Positions 31,736 to 39,475 of a DNA stretch of 46,450 nt are shown piece by piece. How positions within the stretch are numbered: the first letter of the stretch is position 1; every line of letters starts with the position of its first letter. The translations under genes were made by a program, and so were the position numbers. Origin of the DNA: Flavobacteriaceae bacterium (GTDB taxonomy: Bacteria > Bacteroidota > Bacteroidia > Flavobacteriales > Flavobacteriaceae). The notes below the pieces were generated by a model. The model worked only from the letters and a program-made list of their open reading frames with translations. It did not search any database and had not been told where the DNA came from. The stretch covers positions 1-46,450 of the forward strand of contig JABAZA010000043.1 in assembly GCA_018608725.1 (NCBI GenBank), written 5' to 3'.

Positions 31736-32794
31736 CTATACTTCCGAATCTGAACTTAAAGAATTCCAGCCTTGAGCTGTTAACGGAATTTTAGTTTCGG
31801 CACGTGTTACTAAATTCACCCCTACACTTGGTTCGGTCATATAACCAATCACCGTTAAATTTGGGTTGGCTTTAATTTTAGGAAAATCTTGTTGAGAAAT
31901 AGTCATCAGTAATTCATAATCTTCCCCCCCGTTCAGGGCGATGGTAGTGCTGTCTATATTAAATTCCTCACAAGTTGAAATCACCTGCGGGTCTAATGGA
32001 ATTTTATCTTCATATAAATCACACCCAACATCACTTTGTTTACATAAATGAAGAATCTCTGAAGACAAGCCATCACTAATATCAATCATCGATGTTGGTA
32101 CAACCTCCAAATCTTTCAAAAGCTTTACAATATCCTTTCGAGCTTCGGGCTTCAATTGACGTTCAATGATATAGGTGTACCCATCCAAGTCTGGTTGATT
32201 GTTAGGATTTACTTTAAAAACTTCTTTTTCACGTTCTAAAACTTGAAGTCCTAAATAGGCACCACCAAGATCGCCACTGACAACCAATAAATCATTTGGT
32301 TGTGCACCACTTCGTTTAACAACAGTATCCGAATCTACGGTTCCAAGAGCAGTTACAGAAATCATTAATCCAGTTGTAGAAGAGGTTGTATCACCACCAA
32401 CCACGTCAACCCCATAAATCTTAGCGGCTTTGTATATACCTTCGTATAATGCCTCCAAAGCTTCCAATGAAAATCGATTGGAAACAGCCACAGAAACTGT
32501 GATTTGTGTGGCATTTGCATTCATGGCATAGACATCCGAGAGATTCACCATCACAGCTTTATACCCCAAATGTTTTAAGGGCATATAACTCAAATCAAAA
32601 TGAACACCTTCTACCAATAAATCCGTAGTAAGCACAACCGATTTGTTTTTAAAATCTAATATCGCGGCATCATCTCCAATTCCTTTAATCGTGGAACTGT
32701 TTTTATCGGTAAATTGTTTGGTTAAATGCTCTATCAATCCAAACTCTCCTAGACTACTAAGGGGCGTATTTTCTTGGTTTTTATCTTCTATCAT
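31736..32794 (-). CDS. thiL: Thiamine-monophosphate kinase
   Basis: Phosphorylates thiamine monophosphate to thiamine diphosphate with ATP. Motifs: LGEFGLIEHL, IKGIGDDAAIL (ATP/Mg binding), LTTDLLVEGVHFDL, KAVMVNLSDVYAMNA, VGGDTTSS, and DISDGLSSEILHLC in the C-terminal half, with NGGEDYELL near the end. 352 aa, normal for Flavobacteriia. It stands alone between convergent gldD and divergent lipoprotein genes. A -7-like box only 5 nt upstream of the ATG raises the possibility of a leaderless mRNA. Confidence 0.95.
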   Translation of the reverse strand: MIEDKNQENTPLSSLGEFGLIEHLTKQFTDKNSSTIKGIGDDAAILDFKNKSVVLTTDLLVEGVHFDLSYMPLKHLGYKAVMVNLSDVYAMNANATQITVSVAVSNRFSLEALEALYEGIYKAAKIYGVDVVGGDTTSSTTGLMISVTALGTVDSDTVVKRSGAQPNDLLVVSGDLGGAYLGLQVLEREKEVFKVNPNNQPDLDGYTYIIERQLKPEARKDIVKLLKDLEVVPTSMIDISDGLSSEILHLCKQSDVGCDLYEDKIPLDPQVISTCEEFNIDSTTIALNGGEDYELLMTISQQDFPKIKANPNLTVIGYMTEPSVGVNLVTRAETKIPLTAQGWNSLSSDSEV

Positions 32795-32919: not shown

Positions 32920-34374
32920 ATGAATACTCATTTTTTACGACTATTCTGCATTTTTATCATAGTTGGAATAGCGACCTCCTGTAACACAGAACCAATTGGA
33001 GCTGTATCTACAGATTCCGATGGAGATGGCATTATAAACACTTATGATAATTGCCCTGATATTGCCAATCCCAATCAAGAAGATTCCGATGGAGATGGTA
33101 TTGGAAATGCTTGTGATTTGATAGATAATACAGATACGGATGGAGACAGCATAATTGACTCAGAAGACAACTGTCCAGAAATGGCAAACTCAGACCAATT
33201 AGATTCCGATGGAGATGGTATTGGTGATGTTTGTGATCCATTGGCACCTTGCATTAATGGAATGGCAGATATATATCCTTGTGATGGCTATGACCTTATG
33301 AGTTATATGTCATTAGAGGATTTGACCCCTACTGGTACAGGAAGTCTTTCTGGAAATGATTCATGGGGTTGGACCGACCCAACAACTAATAAAGAATATG
33401 CCCTCGTAGGGCTCAATTCTCATGCCGCTTTTGTGGACATAAGCAACCCTGTTGCACCTATTCTTTTAGGAGTGCTCCCAACGGCAACCGTAAACAGCTC
33501 GTGGAGAGATATCAAAGTATATCAAAATCATGCCTTTATTGTGAGTGAAGCGAACAGTCACGGCATGCAGGTTTTTGATTTAACTCGCTTAAGATCCGTT
33601 GCTAGTCCACCAGAAATATTTACTGCAGACTTCCACTTTACAGAATTTGGAAGTGCTCATAATATTTTTATCAACGAAACTTCTGGATATGCCTATGTAG
33701 TGGGAACAAATCGTAGCGGCCCTTTTTCTGGGGGTGCCTTATTTATAAACATCCAAAATCCAACTTCGCCTGTATCTGAAGGGGGATTTGCTGCTGGGGG
33801 TTATTCTCACGATGTACAAGTAATTACCTATACAGGACCAGACAACGATCATACTGGAAAGGAAATATTAGTAGGTAGTAACGAAGATGAAGTTGTAATT
33901 GCAGATGTCTCTGACAAAGCAAATCCATTTATTATTTCAACCCTTACATACCCCAATACCTCCTACACGCATCAGGGATGGTTTACGGAAGATTTGAACT
34001 ATTTTATAGTAGGTGACGAACTTGATGAAAGAGATTTTGGAAACAATACTCGAACCTTAGTATTTGACCTTAGGGACTTAGACAACCCTTTATTTGACTT
34101 TGATTACCTTGGTCCTACAACCGCGATCGATCATAACGGCTATCCGAATGGAAATGATTACTTTTTGGCCAACTATCGCGCAGGAGTTCGTGTTCTTGAC
34201 TTGTCTCAAATTGGGAGTGGTTCACTAACGGAAATTGGATTTTTTGATACCTACCCCGAAAATGATAATGCTGCATTTAACGGCGTATGGAATGTCTATC
34301 CATTTTTTACAAGTGGAAACATTGTGATTAGTGATATCGAACGCGGCTTGTTTATCATTCGAAAAAGCGAATAA
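32920..34374 (+). CDS. Lipoprotein with TSP type-3 repeats and LVIVD/choice-of-anchor B propeller
   Basis: Predicted surface lipoprotein. The signal peptide ends with C21 (IATSC). Residues ~30-110 hold calcium-binding thrombospondin type-3 repeats (DSDGDGIINTYDNCPD; DSDGDGIGNACD; DSEDNCPE; DSDGDGIGDVCD). The rest (about 120-484) matches the choice-of-anchor B / LVIVD pattern: YALVGLNSHAAFVDISNPVAP, HAFIVSEANSHGMQVFDLTRL, AYVVGTNRSG, ALFINIQNPTSP, SHDVQVITYTGPD, VVIADVSDKANP and HQGWFTEDLNYFIVGDELDE. Such repeats form a beta-propeller. The function of the family is unknown. It begins an apparent four-gene block (next gene after 7 nt) with MbnP- and MbnH-like proteins, so a shared surface role is likely. 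Confidence 0.85.
   Translation: MNTHFLRLFCIFIIVGIATSCNTEPIGAVSTDSDGDGIINTYDNCPDIANPNQEDSDGDGIGNACDLIDNTDTDGDSIIDSEDNCPEMANSDQLDSDGDGIGDVCDPLAPCINGMADIYPCDGYDLMSYMSLEDLTPTGTGSLSGNDSWGWTDPTTNKEYALVGLNSHAAFVDISNPVAPILLGVLPTATVNSSWRDIKVYQNHAFIVSEANSHGMQVFDLTRLRSVASPPEIFTADFHFTEFGSAHNIFINETSGYAYVVGTNRSGPFSGGALFINIQNPTSPVSEGGFAAGGYSHDVQVITYTGPDNDHTGKEILVGSNEDEVVIADVSDKANPFIISTLTYPNTSYTHQGWFTEDLNYFIVGDELDERDFGNNTRTLVFDLRDLDNPLFDFDYLGPTTAIDHNGYPNGNDYFLANYRAGVRVLDLSQIGSGSLTEIGFFDTYPENDNAAFNGVWNVYPFFTSGNIVISDIERGLFIIRKSE
33081..33224 (+). repeat. Exact direct DNA repeat within the TSP3 region
   Basis: Positions 33081-33104 and 33201-33224 are identical over 24 bases, a 120-bp (40-codon) period, and a partial third copy is at 33012-33029. 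They encode DSDGDGIG. The identity at DNA level suggests recent duplication or recombination between calcium-binding repeats. Confidence 0.8.
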
Positions 34375-34381
34375 TTTTTTT

Positions 34382-35725
34382 ATGCATAAATTATTTTTAC
34401 ACCAACTATTAGGAGTGTTTTTTGTAGCTTTATTTTTTATAAACTGTTCAGAAGACAATGACAACTCTATCCCTAATGGGCAAGAAAAAGAAATCGATTT
34501 TATAACAACCTTAGGAGGTTCAAAAAATGAAAGCGCACAAGCTGTTGTGAATACAACGGACGGTGGATATGCTATTTTAGGGCATGCCCAAAGTATGGAC
34601 GGAGATGTCCTAAATAAATCAAACGAATCTTACGATTATTGGTTACTGAAATTTGACGCAACCAATCAATTGCAGTGGCAAAAAACATATGGAGGAAGTG
34701 ACGACGATCGAGGAGTTGATTTAATTCAAACTTCAGATAATGGGTATGCTGTAATTGGAAAAAGCAAAAGCAATGATCTTGAAGTCTCTGAAAACGCAGG
34801 ATTTGATGATTTTTGGGTTTCAAAACTGGACAGTAGTGGCACCATTATTTGGGAATATTCTTTTGGATTTGCAGGAAGTGACACCCCCTATTCGATCATC
34901 CAAACCAATGATGACGGGTACTTATTATCGGGCGTTTTAGATGTCTCTGCTTCAAATGGACAAGGAGACCGAAATTCAATTTTGAGTCGGCATGCTGGTG
35001 GCGATTATTGGGTGATTAAGTTAAACGCGAGTGGAGTCAAACAATGGAGCAACTACTATGGTGGTAGCTTTACAGACACGGCATATGACGCCATTCAAAC
35101 AGAAGATGATGGCTATATTATTATTGGCTCTTCAGATAGTGATGATGTGGATATCACAAACAATCTTGGAAGTTACGATTTTTGGATCCTTAAAATTTCA
35201 GCAACGGGAACCTTGGTTTGGGAAAAATCCTTTGGGGGTAGTGAAATTGATGAAGCCCATGCAATCAGTCAAGCAACAGATGGAAACTATTTGATTGTTG
35301 GAGATACAAGAAGCAATGATTTGGAGATCTCTCAAAACAATGGTGCAGCAGATTTATGGATTGTAAAGATAACTCCTGAAGGCACTTTACTCTGGGAAAA
35401 AACCTTAGGTGGTAGTAGTTTTGATGTCGGAAGATCCATTTCCAAAACACAAGATAATGGGTTTTTAGTTTCTGGAAGTTCACGAAGTTCCGATGGTAAT
35501 CTTACTTCTAACAAAGGACAGAATGACGCCTGGGTCGTAAAAATAAATAGCAGTGGCAACTTAGAATGGCAAAAAACCATTGGGGGTAGTGAAGTTGATT
35601 TTTTTTATGATGCGGTTGAACTCAATGACCAAACAATTATTGCTGTTGGAGATTCCAACAGCTCAAATGAAGATATTTATGAAAACAACGGGTTTTCAGA
35701 CCTGTTAATACTTAAATTAAAATGA
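34382..35725 (+). CDS. Lipoprotein with seven propeller-type repeats
   Basis: Predicted lipoprotein: signal peptide with lipobox C22 (FFINC) followed by SEDNDN, an acidic stretch suited to surface export. The mature protein consists of seven repeats of about 55-65 residues, each with the pattern GGS..D.....I.T.DGGY.I.G.S.S....D........D.W..KLD..G...W.K. Repeat openings read GGSKNESA, GGSDDDRG, GFAGSDTP, GGSFTDTA, GGSEIDEA, GGSSFDVG and GGSEVDFF. Seven such units suggest a complete seven-bladed beta-propeller. I chose the ATG at 34382 (447 aa), 7 nt after the previous gene; an in-frame start at 34331 would place 17 residues before the signal peptide. Its stop overlaps the MbnP gene (ATGA). Ligand unknown. 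Confidence 0.82.
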   Translation: MHKLFLHQLLGVFFVALFFINCSEDNDNSIPNGQEKEIDFITTLGGSKNESAQAVVNTTDGGYAILGHAQSMDGDVLNKSNESYDYWLLKFDATNQLQWQKTYGGSDDDRGVDLIQTSDNGYAVIGKSKSNDLEVSENAGFDDFWVSKLDSSGTIIWEYSFGFAGSDTPYSIIQTNDDGYLLSGVLDVSASNGQGDRNSILSRHAGGDYWVIKLNASGVKQWSNYYGGSFTDTAYDAIQTEDDGYIIIGSSDSDDVDITNNLGSYDFWILKISATGTLVWEKSFGGSEIDEAHAISQATDGNYLIVGDTRSNDLEISQNNGAADLWIVKITPEGTLLWEKTLGGSSFDVGRSISKTQDNGFLVSGSSRSSDGNLTSNKGQNDAWVVKINSSGNLEWQKTIGGSEVDFFYDAVELNDQTIIAVGDSNSSNEDIYENNGFSDLLILKLK

Positions 35726-36492
35726 AACAATTTCATGCTTTATTAGCCTTCAGCTTAGTGATTATATTTGGATGTAATACCGATTCTGATGACAGTGTTG
35801 CTTCCGTAAATATTACGATGGCATTTTCTCACTATTGGGAGGGTACGCCCGTAACGAATTCCGATTTTAACATGCTCATTTTTACAAATGACAAAGGGAA
35901 TGTTTTGAGTATTGAACGCTTGCGCTATTTAATTTCAGACATTGAATTCACAAAAACAAATGGAGAAACTATTTTGTTAGAAGGGTATAATTTGGTGGAT
36001 GTTACCAATCAAACAAACCTGTCTTTCACGCCAGACCAAAAAATTTTAACAGGCACTTACAGCAATGTTTCTTTTGTATTTGGCTTTGTCAATGAAAAAA
36101 ATACTGATGGCGCATACAACGATCTTAATACGGCTTCTTGGAATGTACCTTCAATGCTAGGAGGCGGTTATCACTACATGCAATTAGATGGAAAATTTTT
36201 AAACTCCAATAATGAATCTCAAGGATATAATTACCATGCCATCCGAGCGGCTGACAACCCTGGACCCAATCCAACGTTTCCTCAAGATACCTTTTTTAGA
36301 GTGAACTTAGGAGCGATTACGATTGGAGCTGATGAAGAAATTAGCGTTGCGATGCATATTGAAGAATGGTTTAAAACCCCTTACTCTTGGGATCTTAATG
36401 TGTATAATCAAATGCTAATGCCGAATTCTGAGGCTCAAATTTTGATGTATCAAAATGGACAAAATGTATTTTCTCAAGAAAGAATTAACTAA
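35722..36492 (+). CDS. mbnP: MbnP-like copper-binding lipoprotein
   Basis: Member of the MbnP family, periplasmic or surface proteins first found in methanobactin operons, where MbnP binds Cu(I) at a site that includes a kynurenine made from tryptophan. Here the signal peptide ends with lipobox C18 (IIFGC). The family start is VNITMAFSHYWEGTPV, then FTNDKGNVLSIERLRYLISDIEF, VFGFVNEKN, SWNVPSMLGGGYHYMQLDGKF and VAMHIEEWFKTPYSWD. Candidate tryptophans for oxidation are W39, W140, W216 and W223; nearby histidines are H37, H151, H172 and H212. 256 aa. The gene overlaps the previous one by 4 nt and precedes the MbnH-like gene by 4 nt. No methanobactin genes are in the window. Family call good; copper binding inferred. 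Confidence 0.85.
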   Translation: MKQFHALLAFSLVIIFGCNTDSDDSVASVNITMAFSHYWEGTPVTNSDFNMLIFTNDKGNVLSIERLRYLISDIEFTKTNGETILLEGYNLVDVTNQTNLSFTPDQKILTGTYSNVSFVFGFVNEKNTDGAYNDLNTASWNVPSMLGGGYHYMQLDGKFLNSNNESQGYNYHAIRAADNPGPNPTFPQDTFFRVNLGAITIGADEEISVAMHIEEWFKTPYSWDLNVYNQMLMPNSEAQILMYQNGQNVFSQERIN

Positions 36493-36496
36493 ATAG

Positions 36497-37573
36497 ATGA
36501 CACTTAGAATATCTTATTTTTTGGCAATTATGGTTTCACTAGGTCTCGCTTCCTGTAACAAAGAATCTGCAGAGTCTTATATAAACAGCCCTACGCCAAG
36601 TCCACTACAAATTCCTCAATTATTTCAAGACCTCATCCTAGACCCAGTCATTCCTTCAAACAATCCCCAAACAGAAGAAGGCATCTCATTAGGAAAAAAA
36701 CTGTTTTTTGACCCTATTTTATCCGCTAATAACACTCAAGCCTGTGCTAGCTGTCACAAAACTCCAAATGCATTTACAGATGACACTCGCTTTAGTGACG
36801 GAATTGACGGCTTGTTTGGAAATCGAAACTCAATGCCTCTTTTTAACCTAGCATGGAATTATGACAACACATTTTTTTGGGATGGACGCGATTTTGGACT
36901 TGAAAATCAAGTGTTTGAACCTATAACCAACCCTATAGAAATGCACACCACTTGGGAAGCTGTGACTGAAAAACTCCAACAGCATCCAGAATACCCAGAA
37001 CTTTTTAATGCGGCATTTGGAACACAGACTATTGATTCCGTACTGGTTTCTAAGGCCATCGCTCAGTTTGAAAGAACCCTTATTTCGGCAAATTCAAAAT
37101 TTGACAAATTCCTCTTAGGCACCGCTACATTAACTCCAGAAGAAACAAATGGTTTTAATATTTTTATGGACGAATCAAAAGGCGATTGTTTCCATTGTCA
37201 TGGGAGTGACAACAATCCGCTTTGGACTGATAATAAATTTCACAATAACGGCTTAGACACTACGTTTTCTGATCTTGGATTAGGGAATGTAACCGGGGAT
37301 CCCGCTGACAACGGGAAATTCAAAACGCCTTCTTTAAGAAACCTTGTCTTCACAGCCCCTTATATGCATGATGGGCGATTTGAAACAATTGAAGACGTTA
37401 TCAATCATTACAGCGAAGGCTTACAAAATTCTGAAACTATTGATCCCTTAATGAAAAAAGTGGATCAAGGAGGCGTACAGCTCAGCTCTCAAGAAAAAGC
37501 CGATCTTAAGGCCTTTCTTTTAAGTTTATCAGACTCCGATTTTATAAATAATCCGGACTTTTCTGACCCATAA
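36497..37573 (+). CDS. mbnH: MbnH-like dihaem protein (cytochrome c peroxidase / MauG superfamily), lipoprotein
   Basis: Exported dihaem c-type enzyme. A signal peptide ends with C20 (LGLASC), so it is probably a lipoprotein. Haem attachment motifs are C83-A-S-C86-H87 and C231-F-H-C234-H235. Other superfamily features: LGKKLFFDPILSANNTQACASCH region, FSDGIDG, NRNSMPLFNLAWN (W120), FFWDGR (W128), NPIEM, and FKTPSLRNLVFTAPYMHDGRF near the C-terminus. In Methylosinus trichosporium OB3b the MbnH enzyme oxidises a tryptophan of MbnP to kynurenine; being immediately downstream of an MbnP-like gene favours that role over hydrogen peroxide detoxification. 358 aa. A plain cytochrome c peroxidase remains possible. 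Confidence 0.86.
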   Translation: MTLRISYFLAIMVSLGLASCNKESAESYINSPTPSPLQIPQLFQDLILDPVIPSNNPQTEEGISLGKKLFFDPILSANNTQACASCHKTPNAFTDDTRFSDGIDGLFGNRNSMPLFNLAWNYDNTFFWDGRDFGLENQVFEPITNPIEMHTTWEAVTEKLQQHPEYPELFNAAFGTQTIDSVLVSKAIAQFERTLISANSKFDKFLLGTATLTPEETNGFNIFMDESKGDCFHCHGSDNNPLWTDNKFHNNGLDTTFSDLGLGNVTGDPADNGKFKTPSLRNLVFTAPYMHDGRFETIEDVINHYSEGLQNSETIDPLMKKVDQGGVQLSSQEKADLKAFLLSLSDSDFINNPDFSDP

Positions 37574-37638: not shown

Positions 37639-37646
37639 TATATTTG
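37639..37646 (+). promoter_or_regulatory. -7 element of the suf operon promoter
   Basis: TATATTTG, an exact TAnnTTTG match, 32 nt before the chosen sufA ATG. No clear TTG at -33. It lies inside the reading frame that an upstream ATG at 37604 would open, which argues for the downstream start. Confidence 0.5.
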
Positions 37647-37678: not shown

Positions 37679-38008
37679 ATGATAAAAGTATCTGAAACAG
37701 CAAAAAGTAAAGTCGTGCAATTAATGCATGATGATGGATTTGATCCCGCCAATGACTTTGTCAGAGTGGGCGTTAAAAGCGGAGGATGCTCAGGGCTATC
37801 TTATGACTTAAAATTTGATAAATCTCAGGGTGAAGGCGATAAATTATTTGAAGACAACGGCGTAAAAATTGTGGTTGACACGAAGAGTTTTTTATATCTT
37901 ATTGGAACAACACTAGAGTATTCTGGTGGTCTAAACGGAGCCGGATTTGTGTTTAATAACCCCAATGCAAATCGTACTTGTGGGTGTGGAGAATCTTTTT
38001 CTTTATAA
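37679..38008 (+). CDS. sufA: HesB/IscA-type Fe-S carrier (SufA-like)
   Basis: A-type carrier that receives Fe-S clusters from the SufBCD scaffold and passes them to target proteins. The three conserved cysteines are visible: GGCSGL and, near the C-terminus, CGCG (RTCGCGESF). The central block DTKSFLYLIGTTLEYSGGLNGAGFVFNNPNA is typical. I chose the ATG at 37679 (109 aa, standard length) rather than the one at 37604, which would add 25 hydrophobic residues not found in the family. First gene of the suf operon; sufB follows after 18 nt. Confidence 0.92.
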   Translation: MIKVSETAKSKVVQLMHDDGFDPANDFVRVGVKSGGCSGLSYDLKFDKSQGEGDKLFEDNGVKIVVDTKSFLYLIGTTLEYSGGLNGAGFVFNNPNANRTCGCGESFSL

Positions 38009-38026: not shown

Positions 38027-39475
38027 ATGAGTAAGTACACCGAAGATGATTTAAGAGAAGAGTTAAAAACCAAAGAATATGAATATGGTTTTTATACCGA
38101 TATAGATTCCGAAACATTCCCTATTGGCTTGGATGAATCTATTGTAAGAGCCATCTCAAAAAAGAAAGAGGAACCAGAATGGATGACTGAATGGAGATTG
38201 GAAGCTTTTAAAGTTTGGAAATCCATGGAAGAGCCAGACTGGGCAAATGTAAACTATCAAAAACCCGATTTTCAAGCGATTGCTTATTACTCTGCTCCAG
38301 CATCTGTAGATCCAAACAAAACCCTAGACGATGTCGATCCAGACTTATTGGCGATGTATAAAAAATTAGGGATTTCGATTGATGAACAGAAAAAAATGAA
38401 TAACATCGCTATGGACATAGTCGTTGATTCTGTATCCGTTGCGACCACTTTTAAAGAGACGCTTGGTGAAAAAGGCATCATTTTTATGAGTATTTCTGAA
38501 GCCATCAAAGAACATCCTGAACTCGTTAAAAAATATATAGGAACCGTGGTTCCCAGAACCGACAATTATTATGCTGCCCTAAACAGTGCTGTGTTTAGTG
38601 ATGGTAGTTTTTGCTACATTCCCAAAGGAGTAAAGTGTCCAATGGAACTCTCCACCTATTTCAGAATTAATCAAGGGGGAACAGGCCAATTCGAACGTAC
38701 CCTTTTAATTGCAGATGAAGGAAGTTATGTTAGCTACCTTGAAGGCTGTACGGCTCCAAGTAGAGACGAAAATCAATTGCATGCCGCCGTTGTAGAACTG
38801 ATTGCTATGGATGCTGCTGAAATTAAATACTCTACCGTTCAAAACTGGTATCCTGGTGATTCTAAAGGAGTTGGAGGTGTATATAATTTTGTCACAAAAA
38901 GAGGAATCTGTGAAAAAGATGCCAAAATTTCTTGGACACAAGTAGAAACTGGAAGTGCAGTTACATGGAAATATCCTTCTTGTGTATTGAAAGGGGATAA
39001 TTCTGTAGGTGAGTTTTATTCCATTGCTGTAACCAATAACTTTCAGCAAGCAGATACTGGTACCAAAATGATTCATTTAGGAAAAAATACCAAATCAACG
39101 ATCATTAGTAAAGGGATTTCCGCAGGCAACTCTCAAAATAGTTACAGAGGACTTGTTCAAATAAGTTCGAGGGCAGAAAATGCTCGAAACTTTTCTCAAT
39201 GTGACAGTCTATTAATGGGTAACGCGTGTGGTGCACACACATTTCCCTATATAGAAGCCAAAAATAAATCAGCTCAAATTGAGCACGAAGCAACCACAAG
39301 TAAAATTGGAGAAGATCAAATATTTTACTGTAATCAGAGAGGAATTGATACTGAAAAAGCAATAGCATTAATTGTGAATGGATTTAGTAAAGAAGTCCTT
39401 AACAAACTCCCTATGGAATTTGCTGTGGAAGCTCAAAAATTATTAGAAATAAGCCTCGAAGGCTCTGTAGGATAA
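38027..39475 (+). CDS. sufB: Fe-S cluster assembly scaffold SufB
   Basis: Central scaffold subunit of the SufBC2D complex, where new Fe-S clusters are built. Typical regions: [71 protein letters not shown] (family positions), [23 protein letters not shown] and [25 protein letters not shown]. 482 aa, the normal length. It is second in the operon; instead of sufC, the next gene is a small lipoprotein, 11 nt downstream. Confidence 0.96.

Follow-up and report, generated by a model that had tools for sequence, protein, structure and literature searches.

What would two propeller lipoproteins be doing beside the genes for an MbnP-like protein and its di-haem partner MbnH? The question is raised by four genes at positions 32,920 to 37,573 of a 46,450-nucleotide stretch of Flavobacteriaceae bacterium DNA (contig JABAZA010000043.1 of assembly GCA_018608725.1; the whole stretch is hereafter the window). 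MbnP binds Cu(I), and because MbnP/MbnH pairs are widespread, copper sites built on kynurenine are expected to be so too. A 2021 paper on MbnP reportedly found that the first Trp of a WxW motif becomes kynurenine, with a His and a Met near the copper. Here we describe the recurrence, locus states and conserved residues of the four-gene set, and we tentatively read it, at somewhat less than even confidence, as a flavobacterial surface metal module, probably for Cu(I), with its site in MbnP or alternatively in one of the propellers.

The genes, which we call P1 to P4, lie on one strand:

32920..34374, + strand: P1, a lipoprotein with a TSP3 linker and a choice_anch_B (LVIVD-type) propeller (TSP_3 62 bits, TIGR04312 540 bits)
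34382..35725, + strand: P2, a seven-bladed propeller lipoprotein of the kind of the CylK C-terminal domain (28 strands, CylK 7ron)
35722..36492, + strand: P3, an MbnP-fold lipoprotein from a clade with an eroded WxW motif (PF20243 91 bits, 7l6g Z 16.8)
36497..37573, + strand: P4, an MbnH-like di-haem lipoprotein, the partner of P3 (CCP_MauG 195 bits, 6e1c)

The gaps between them are 7, -4 and 4 nt, taking ATG 34382 as the start of P2 (the first start in the list of open reading frames is GTG 34331). All four proteins open with a signal peptide and a lipobox Cys, read directly (P1 ...IATSC, P2 ...FFINC, P3 ...IIFGC, P4 ...GLASC), so that the layout is the one given by the first-pass annotation, which had described four lipoprotein genes with these spacings. 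An acidic pair shortly after the lipobox Cys in 94 of the 106 window-type MbnPs for which a lipobox was found makes a surface location of the lipoproteins plausible. A scan for promoters and terminators returned counts close to those of shuffled sequence.

Recurrence of the set was surveyed at three scales. Searching species genomes with P3 identified 83 relatives, and we kept 80; conditioned in this way on P3, P4 lies downstream in all 80, P2 upstream in 79 and P1 upstream in 78, and contig ends (L079, L059) explain the missing neighbours. A second sample took 199 Flavobacteriaceae genomes, close to one for each genus; of these, 100 carry MbnP (112 matches) and 115 carry choice_anch_B, the family of P1. 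A choice_anch_B gene lies upstream of MbnP on the same strand, within 3.5 kb, for at least 68 of the 112 matches, a lower bound as 150 listed choice_anch_B matches were used for the co-location. Divided by MbnP score, this holds for at least 57 of 61 matches under 112 bits and at least 11 of 51 at 112 bits or more. Co-occurrence of the four genes in the 80 relatives is far above chance. The first-pass annotation had named a lack of recurrent propeller genes beside mbnPH as a refutation of its proposal, and on that point the proposal is upheld. In a phylum-wide sample of 247 genomes, MbnP was found in 67 and choice_anch_B in 93; the link between propellers and mbnPH looks family-specific, because among the matches listed only the window's own genome, G088 and G103 combine the two. 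No propeller link with MbnP/MbnH is described in the titles and abstract openings listed by our searches of open-licence PubMed Central (PMC) literature.

Most of these loci share one chromosomal slot, bounded by thiL and the suf genes:

31736..32794, - strand: thiL, the fixed left neighbour, directly upstream in 71 of the 73 loci with an upstream open reading frame
37679..38008, + strand: sufA, the fixed right neighbour, found in 77 of 80 loci

thiL is on the strand opposite to the module, and sufB, which starts at 38027 after sufA, is found in 78 of 80 loci. Bacteroidota promoters have a -7 element, and a TATATTTG box resembling it lies at window positions 37639-37646, 32 nt ahead of sufA. 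Because this box precedes sufA, suf is probably transcribed separately from the module.

To the 80 loci we added 110 further stretches (L142-L251), chosen from tables and not at random, and distinguished three states among the loci with P2. State a, P1-P2-window-type MbnP-MbnH, comprises 108 rows, among them the window (L001), its duplicate record (L002) and a small number of further repeats; together they hold 104 different MbnP sequences. State b, P1-P2-canonical WxW MbnP-MbnH, comprises 7 rows, and state c, P1-P2 without mbnPH, 38. The order P2-MbnP-MbnH on one strand is kept in all 115 classified loci with mbnPH, and P1 lies upstream in 112, the stretches of L001, L032 and L059 being cut there. 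As far as the stretches extend, most of these loci lie between thiL and suf. The slot encodes between one and five choice_anch_B propellers with a single P2; in a large group of genera an mbnP-mbnH pair from either of two separate lineages comes after them. In the state b locus L173 the four-gene set has no thiL or suf nearby, and the thiL-sufA slot of the same genome (L236) holds P1 alone; in L178, also state b, the MbnH gene lies some 4 kb past MbnP. Among 35 genomes with a listed choice_anch_B match and no MbnP, P2 is present in 33 and P1 alone in G053 and G319; one of the 33 loci, L222, has no thiL or suf nearby. The remaining five c rows come from G234 and from four genomes whose MbnP lies elsewhere.

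The mbnPH pairs in states a and b are of different descent. In a quick tree of 92 MbnH-like proteins (21 of 107 a rows, branch support from the Shimodaira-Hasegawa-like approximate likelihood ratio test, SH-aLRT, only), the a rows group together as a clade (100), as do the seven b rows (97), which are nested among MbnH of flavobacterial loci outside the slot. The MbnP tree, which uses 24 of 108 a rows, concurs (a 97, b 99). Because both trees give separate a and b clades, the sequences indicate that two distinct mbnPH pairs entered, or replaced each other at, the site downstream of P2. This is the best evidence that the association is functional, beyond shared inheritance.

P2 is present in all three states, and its annotated seven repeats are those of a propeller. 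Its model (predicted local distance difference test, pLDDT, 83) has 28 strands, that is seven blades of four, and matches the C-terminal propeller of CylK (7ron) with Z 49.5 and a root-mean-square deviation (rmsd) of 2.0 over 376 aligned residues, the next non-CylK entry reaching Z 32.5; a P2 sequence profile also recovers CylK (E 4e-31). Residues 38-447 of P2 align to CylK 249-651, and upstream of the propeller there is only the signal peptide and a short linker. P2 thus resembles the C-terminal seven-bladed propeller of this Friedel-Crafts alkylating enzyme and differs from CylK in being a lipoprotein and in lacking the domain ahead of the propeller.

Comparing the Trp, His, Met, Cys and Tyr columns of the P1 and P2 alignments between loci with and without mbnPH, we found an H-D-H motif in P2 that is invariant at loci without mbnPH (38/38 in state c) and absent at loci with it (0/108 in a, 0/7 in b; column counts and string search). 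The window has a different triplet at this place:

34877..34885, + strand: P2 S166-D167-T168, the site that matches the invariant H-D-H of P2 at loci without mbnPH (alignment)

A further His, in GFHDN, is likewise present in all 38 c rows, with His in the same column in 10 of 108 a and 1 of 7 b rows; a Met in GYAMS occurs in 27 of the 38; and states a, b and c alike retain a fourth His (HGVGEF/HAGGDY), one gapped row excepted. These positions fall in the loop joining strands 1 and 2 of blade 3 and where the long loops ahead of the last strands of blades 2 and 3 end, and judging from the strand list and repeat topology they should share one face of the propeller. The counts invite treatment as 153 independent cases, which we rejected: the P2 tree needs one change.

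P3 is MbnP on Pfam score and on fold. It scores 91.1 bits against Pfam PF20243 MbnP (gathering cut-off 27), and its model (pLDDT 87) fits the crystal structure of MbnP, 7l6g, at Z 16.8 with an rmsd of 3.4 over 215 residues, the entry after it reaching Z 7.1, which bears out its annotation as MbnP-like; only 7l6g stood out in a Foldseek/VIA structure comparison. A PDB sequence search with P3 alone or with its clade found nothing, and a canonical MbnP profile retrieved 7l6g. Against NCBIfam MbnP_like_WxW (TIGR04052, equivalog cut-off 140 bits), P3 gave no match up to E 0.1. That model is narrow, because WxW-bearing flavobacterial MbnPs also miss its cut-off (L179 36.6 bits, L172 47.9).

Some residues that are invariant in canonical MbnP have changed in the window's clade. 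In 16 aligned canonical Bacteroidota MbnPs the Met, both Trp of WxW and one His are all invariant, and the WxW pattern is matched in 64 of 69 MbnPs outside the clade. In the window the motif is degenerate, and other residues are conserved:

36139..36147, + strand: MbnP W140-N141-V142, a degenerate WxW, with W140 aligned to the first Trp of WNWP members
35836..35838, + strand: MbnP Trp39 of an H-x-W motif, Trp in 105 of 108 rows
36172..36174, + strand: MbnP His151, 108 of 108 in the clade
36235..36237, + strand: MbnP His172, 108 of 108 in the clade, in the column of the invariant His of canonical MbnP

Five of the 108 clade rows (L179, L180, L183, L191 and L251) keep a full WNWP; in the other 103 the second Trp has become Val. 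The first position is split evenly over the clade, with 54 rows each for Trp and Phe. Two changes at the second position and about six at the first are needed on a tree of 107 rows. M153 (105 of 108), H37 (99, with Gln in 6), W216 (107) and W223 (108) vary little or not at all. Early alignments, which placed V142 under the first Trp, suggested that the kynurenine Trp is wholly lost; the five WNWP members make W140 the better match, and we softened that claim. Pairing W140 with the canonical first Trp presupposes a loop that in the window's type is longer by four residues. Side by side with this series stands the MbnP of G219 (L161 6389-8591, MbnH-like gene next), which reads GMLWPAMMGYHYM, intermediate between the canonical and window types, and groups with the window's clade (98) on a long branch. 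Two genomes of the same class carry tandem MbnPs (L152 4552-5328 and 5382-6119; L155 7295-8020 and 8068-8826), one copy with Y-W-x-x-W and the other with no Trp at the WxW place and an N-terminal H-x-W like that of the window's MbnP.

P4, by contrast with its usual target, looks intact. It scores 195 bits against CCP_MauG, both of its CxxCH motifs are conserved, and its best solved relative is 6e1c ("Di-heme enzyme"), better scored than any solved peroxidase; the annotation as an MbnH-like dihaem protein holds. We take 6e1c to be the MbnH of Methylosinus trichosporium.

36743..36757, + strand: first haem motif of P4, CASCH, with Cys and His columns common with MbnH

Against the MbnH model TIGR04039 it reaches 264.5 bits, under the curated cut-off of 362.85, as do other MbnH-like proteins (L172 226, L179 269, L161 256 bits). 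The equivalent of OB3b MbnH Trp107 is present in 105 of 107 window-type rows and in 16 of 45 other flavobacterial-type MbnHs, a recount that replaced our first impression that it was missing in most of the latter; the His249 equivalent is present in 107 of 107 and 2 of 45. MbnH follows MbnP in all 108 clade rows, and because the Trp107 and His249 equivalents are kept while WxW varies, the enzyme appears to be maintained as its usual Trp target erodes. Two MbnH-like genes lie close together in L148, L154, L159, L163, L166, L169 and L170, and L166 and L169 also have two MbnPs.

Besides CylK and the choice_anch_B family, two known systems are comparable. The MbnP/MbnH pair of M. trichosporium OB3b (7l6g, 6e1c; TIGR04052/TIGR04039) shares with P3 and P4 an MbnP-fold protein next to a MauG-like di-haem enzyme, with the haem motifs and the Trp107 and His249 equivalents common to P4. 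The window differs in having no WxW in MbnP, a new invariant His151, lipoprotein anchors, two propeller partners, and thiL and suf neighbours. In methanotrophs, passages of PMC3912023 and PMC3621798 describe MopE/SACCP and CorA/CorB, where a surface copper protein gene likewise stands beside a di-haem cytochrome gene. The CorA site is Kyn62-x-His64 with His114. A W-x-H is missing from the window's MbnP, which offers only H37-x-W39, and none of its Trp residues (39, 140, 216, 223) precedes x-H, so a strand of the MopE/CorA kind is absent from P3.

P1 scores 62 bits against TSP_3 (cut-off 25) and 540 bits over the full profile of TIGR04312 choice_anch_B (cut-off 100), and is a member of that family, here distinguished by its tie to mbnPH. 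To our knowledge the choice-of-anchor B family has no known function. Against Pfam LVIVD (PF08309) it reaches 18.5 bits, under the cut-off of 20.2; the earlier description of a TSP3/LVIVD propeller stands for the TSP3 repeats and the propeller, with the Pfam LVIVD match staying sub-threshold. P1 occurs once in all 38 c rows, one to three times in b rows and one to five times in a rows, counts that exclude the three a rows cut on that side (L001, L032, L059); more than one copy is seen only with mbnPH (in 17 of the 108 a rows and 4 of the 7 b rows, against none of the 38 c rows; for example L186 and L187). TSP3-like repeats in P1 are restricted to the window's type (56 of 137 P1 genes, 0 of 50 in others). 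Copies near P2 in L173, L185, L186 and L187 include some of 638-826 aa with an apparent C-terminal sorting domain of the type IX secretion system (judged by eye), so that the anchor type differs among choice_anch_B copies of one cluster.

Flavobacterial MbnPH loci outside the slot have other neighbours. Among ten (L204-L211, L188, L189), a small CxGKC protein occurs in 8 and a CDxCGC protein of about 300-350 aa in 7 (for example L205 5550-5900 and 7856-8821). Those tested (both from L205, and those of L188 and L209) matched no Pfam family, and one tested neighbour gave a sub-threshold TonB plug match. These proteins and the plug match fit metal traffic and are not proof of it.

How might the parts work together? 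What the genomes show is firm, unlike the mechanism. As a surface metal module, the four lipoproteins would sit on the cell surface. P2, with P1, would be the part that stays the same and serves for docking or as a receptor, and the part that can be exchanged would be a metal site, Cu(I) being the most likely metal. For the window's type this site would be placed in MbnP, where H151 and H172 are invariant and M153 and H37 nearly so, and MbnH would assist it using peroxide; at loci without mbnPH it would lie in P2 itself (H-D-H, two further His and usually Met). P1 and P2 must have a role of their own, because they persist without mbnPH. A metal is suggested by the His/Met sets and by kinship to MbnP, and copper would be the likeliest one because CorA, MopE and MbnP all bind it. 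Passages of PMC3912023 give Cu(I) as bound by CorA, and the abstract of PMC3423442 gives copper as bound by MopE.

Several observations weigh against this reading. The P2 tree (85 of 153 rows, namely all b and c rows and 40 of 108 a rows, with the trait columns removed) splits c from a and b on a single branch (97); midpoint rooting places c outermost, and the root, being a midpoint only, does not set the direction of change. Because one branch separates the states, the mutual exclusion of H-D-H and mbnPH is one event that could be chance history, and it is suggestive, not proven; the clustering of the candidate metal residues is likewise deduced from strands and fold matches. Window-type MbnP has no counterpart of the Met in the canonical GM(F/Y)W motif. 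As of 2013, according to a passage of PMC3621798, data connecting copper with the close homologues of MbnP were lacking. Next to the module, where neighbours were clustered and read by eye with no family search, we recognised no copper regulator, chaperone or transporter. Outside Flavobacteriaceae, MbnPH is found without propellers: of 30 canonical MbnP loci drawn automatically from the phylum sample, each read with some 1.5 kb on either side, all 30 have a P4-like gene and none has P1 or P2. Conversely, P2 and P1 do without mbnPH in 33 of the 35 genomes with choice_anch_B and no MbnP.

A more specific history is possible but doubtful. One surface receptor may have had two interchangeable metal sites, the first being P2's own His/Met site, lost once an mbnPH pair had entered the operon (over time, it seems, from two lineages) and the metal had passed to MbnP. 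In the window's clade the kynurenine Trp would then have eroded in parallel toward an all His/Met site, leaving MbnH without its WxW substrate and acting differently.

The alternative put forward by the first-pass annotation is that MbnH oxidises a Trp of MbnP to kynurenine, making a Cu(I) site, with the propellers docking. For it speak the MbnP fold of P3, the Trp107 and His249 equivalents of P4, the presence of W140 in the window, the five deep clade members that keep WNWP and the seven other loci of the same layout with canonical WxW MbnP. The failure of P3 to match MbnP_like_WxW counts against it weakly, as WxW-bearing flavobacterial MbnPs miss the cut-off too; the stronger objection is that 103 of 108 rows have lost the second Trp and 54 have Phe in place of the first, with some six changes at that position, while MbnH is kept throughout. 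Kynurenine at W140 is possible in the window's organism, and, on the alignment, cannot be required across the clade, because Phe replaces W140 in half of it. With WNV in place of WxW, we consider the claim for this MbnP unlikely to hold as made. The proposal that the propellers are substrates of MbnH is disfavoured as well: in neither propeller is there a Trp column that marks out loci with mbnPH. Our scan of P1 and P2 columns for such a substrate turned up no Trp gained with mbnPH and the reverse, His gained without it.

Improbable to a similar degree is a plain surface peroxidase, in which P4 would remove H2O2 and MbnP would serve as electron donor or scaffold, with no Trp modified. It would account for MbnH being retained where the Trp is lost, and P4 does fall under the curated MbnH cut-off, yet so do three other MbnH-like proteins (226 to 269 bits). 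The strict pairing with an MbnP-fold protein, the conserved MbnP His and the better fit of P4 to 6e1c than to any solved peroxidase point away from it.

That MbnH modifies a different Trp, be it W39 of the H-x-W, W216 or W223 of MbnP or one in a propeller, seems to us quite unlikely. The three MbnP residues are conserved in 105, 107 and 108 of 108 rows, and H-x-W recurs in the two tandem MbnPs without Trp at the WxW place (L152, L155); however, W39 is Phe in 3 of 108 rows, conserved Trp is often structural, and the propellers show no Trp column gained with mbnPH. Synteny alone, with unrelated genes co-inherited at one locus, is very improbable: one fixed thiL-suf slot means that most counts amount to one inheritance, but two mbnPH lineages occupy that slot, the four-gene set is also found elsewhere, and the genes are joined by a 4-nt overlap and short gaps.

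The locus connects two propeller families, neither with a known function, to what is probably a metal system. Its series from WxW through WNV to FNV, with the di-haem enzyme kept, is a natural test of whether the modification is needed, and the H-D-H of P2 is a prediction at residue level that could be checked with one purified protein.

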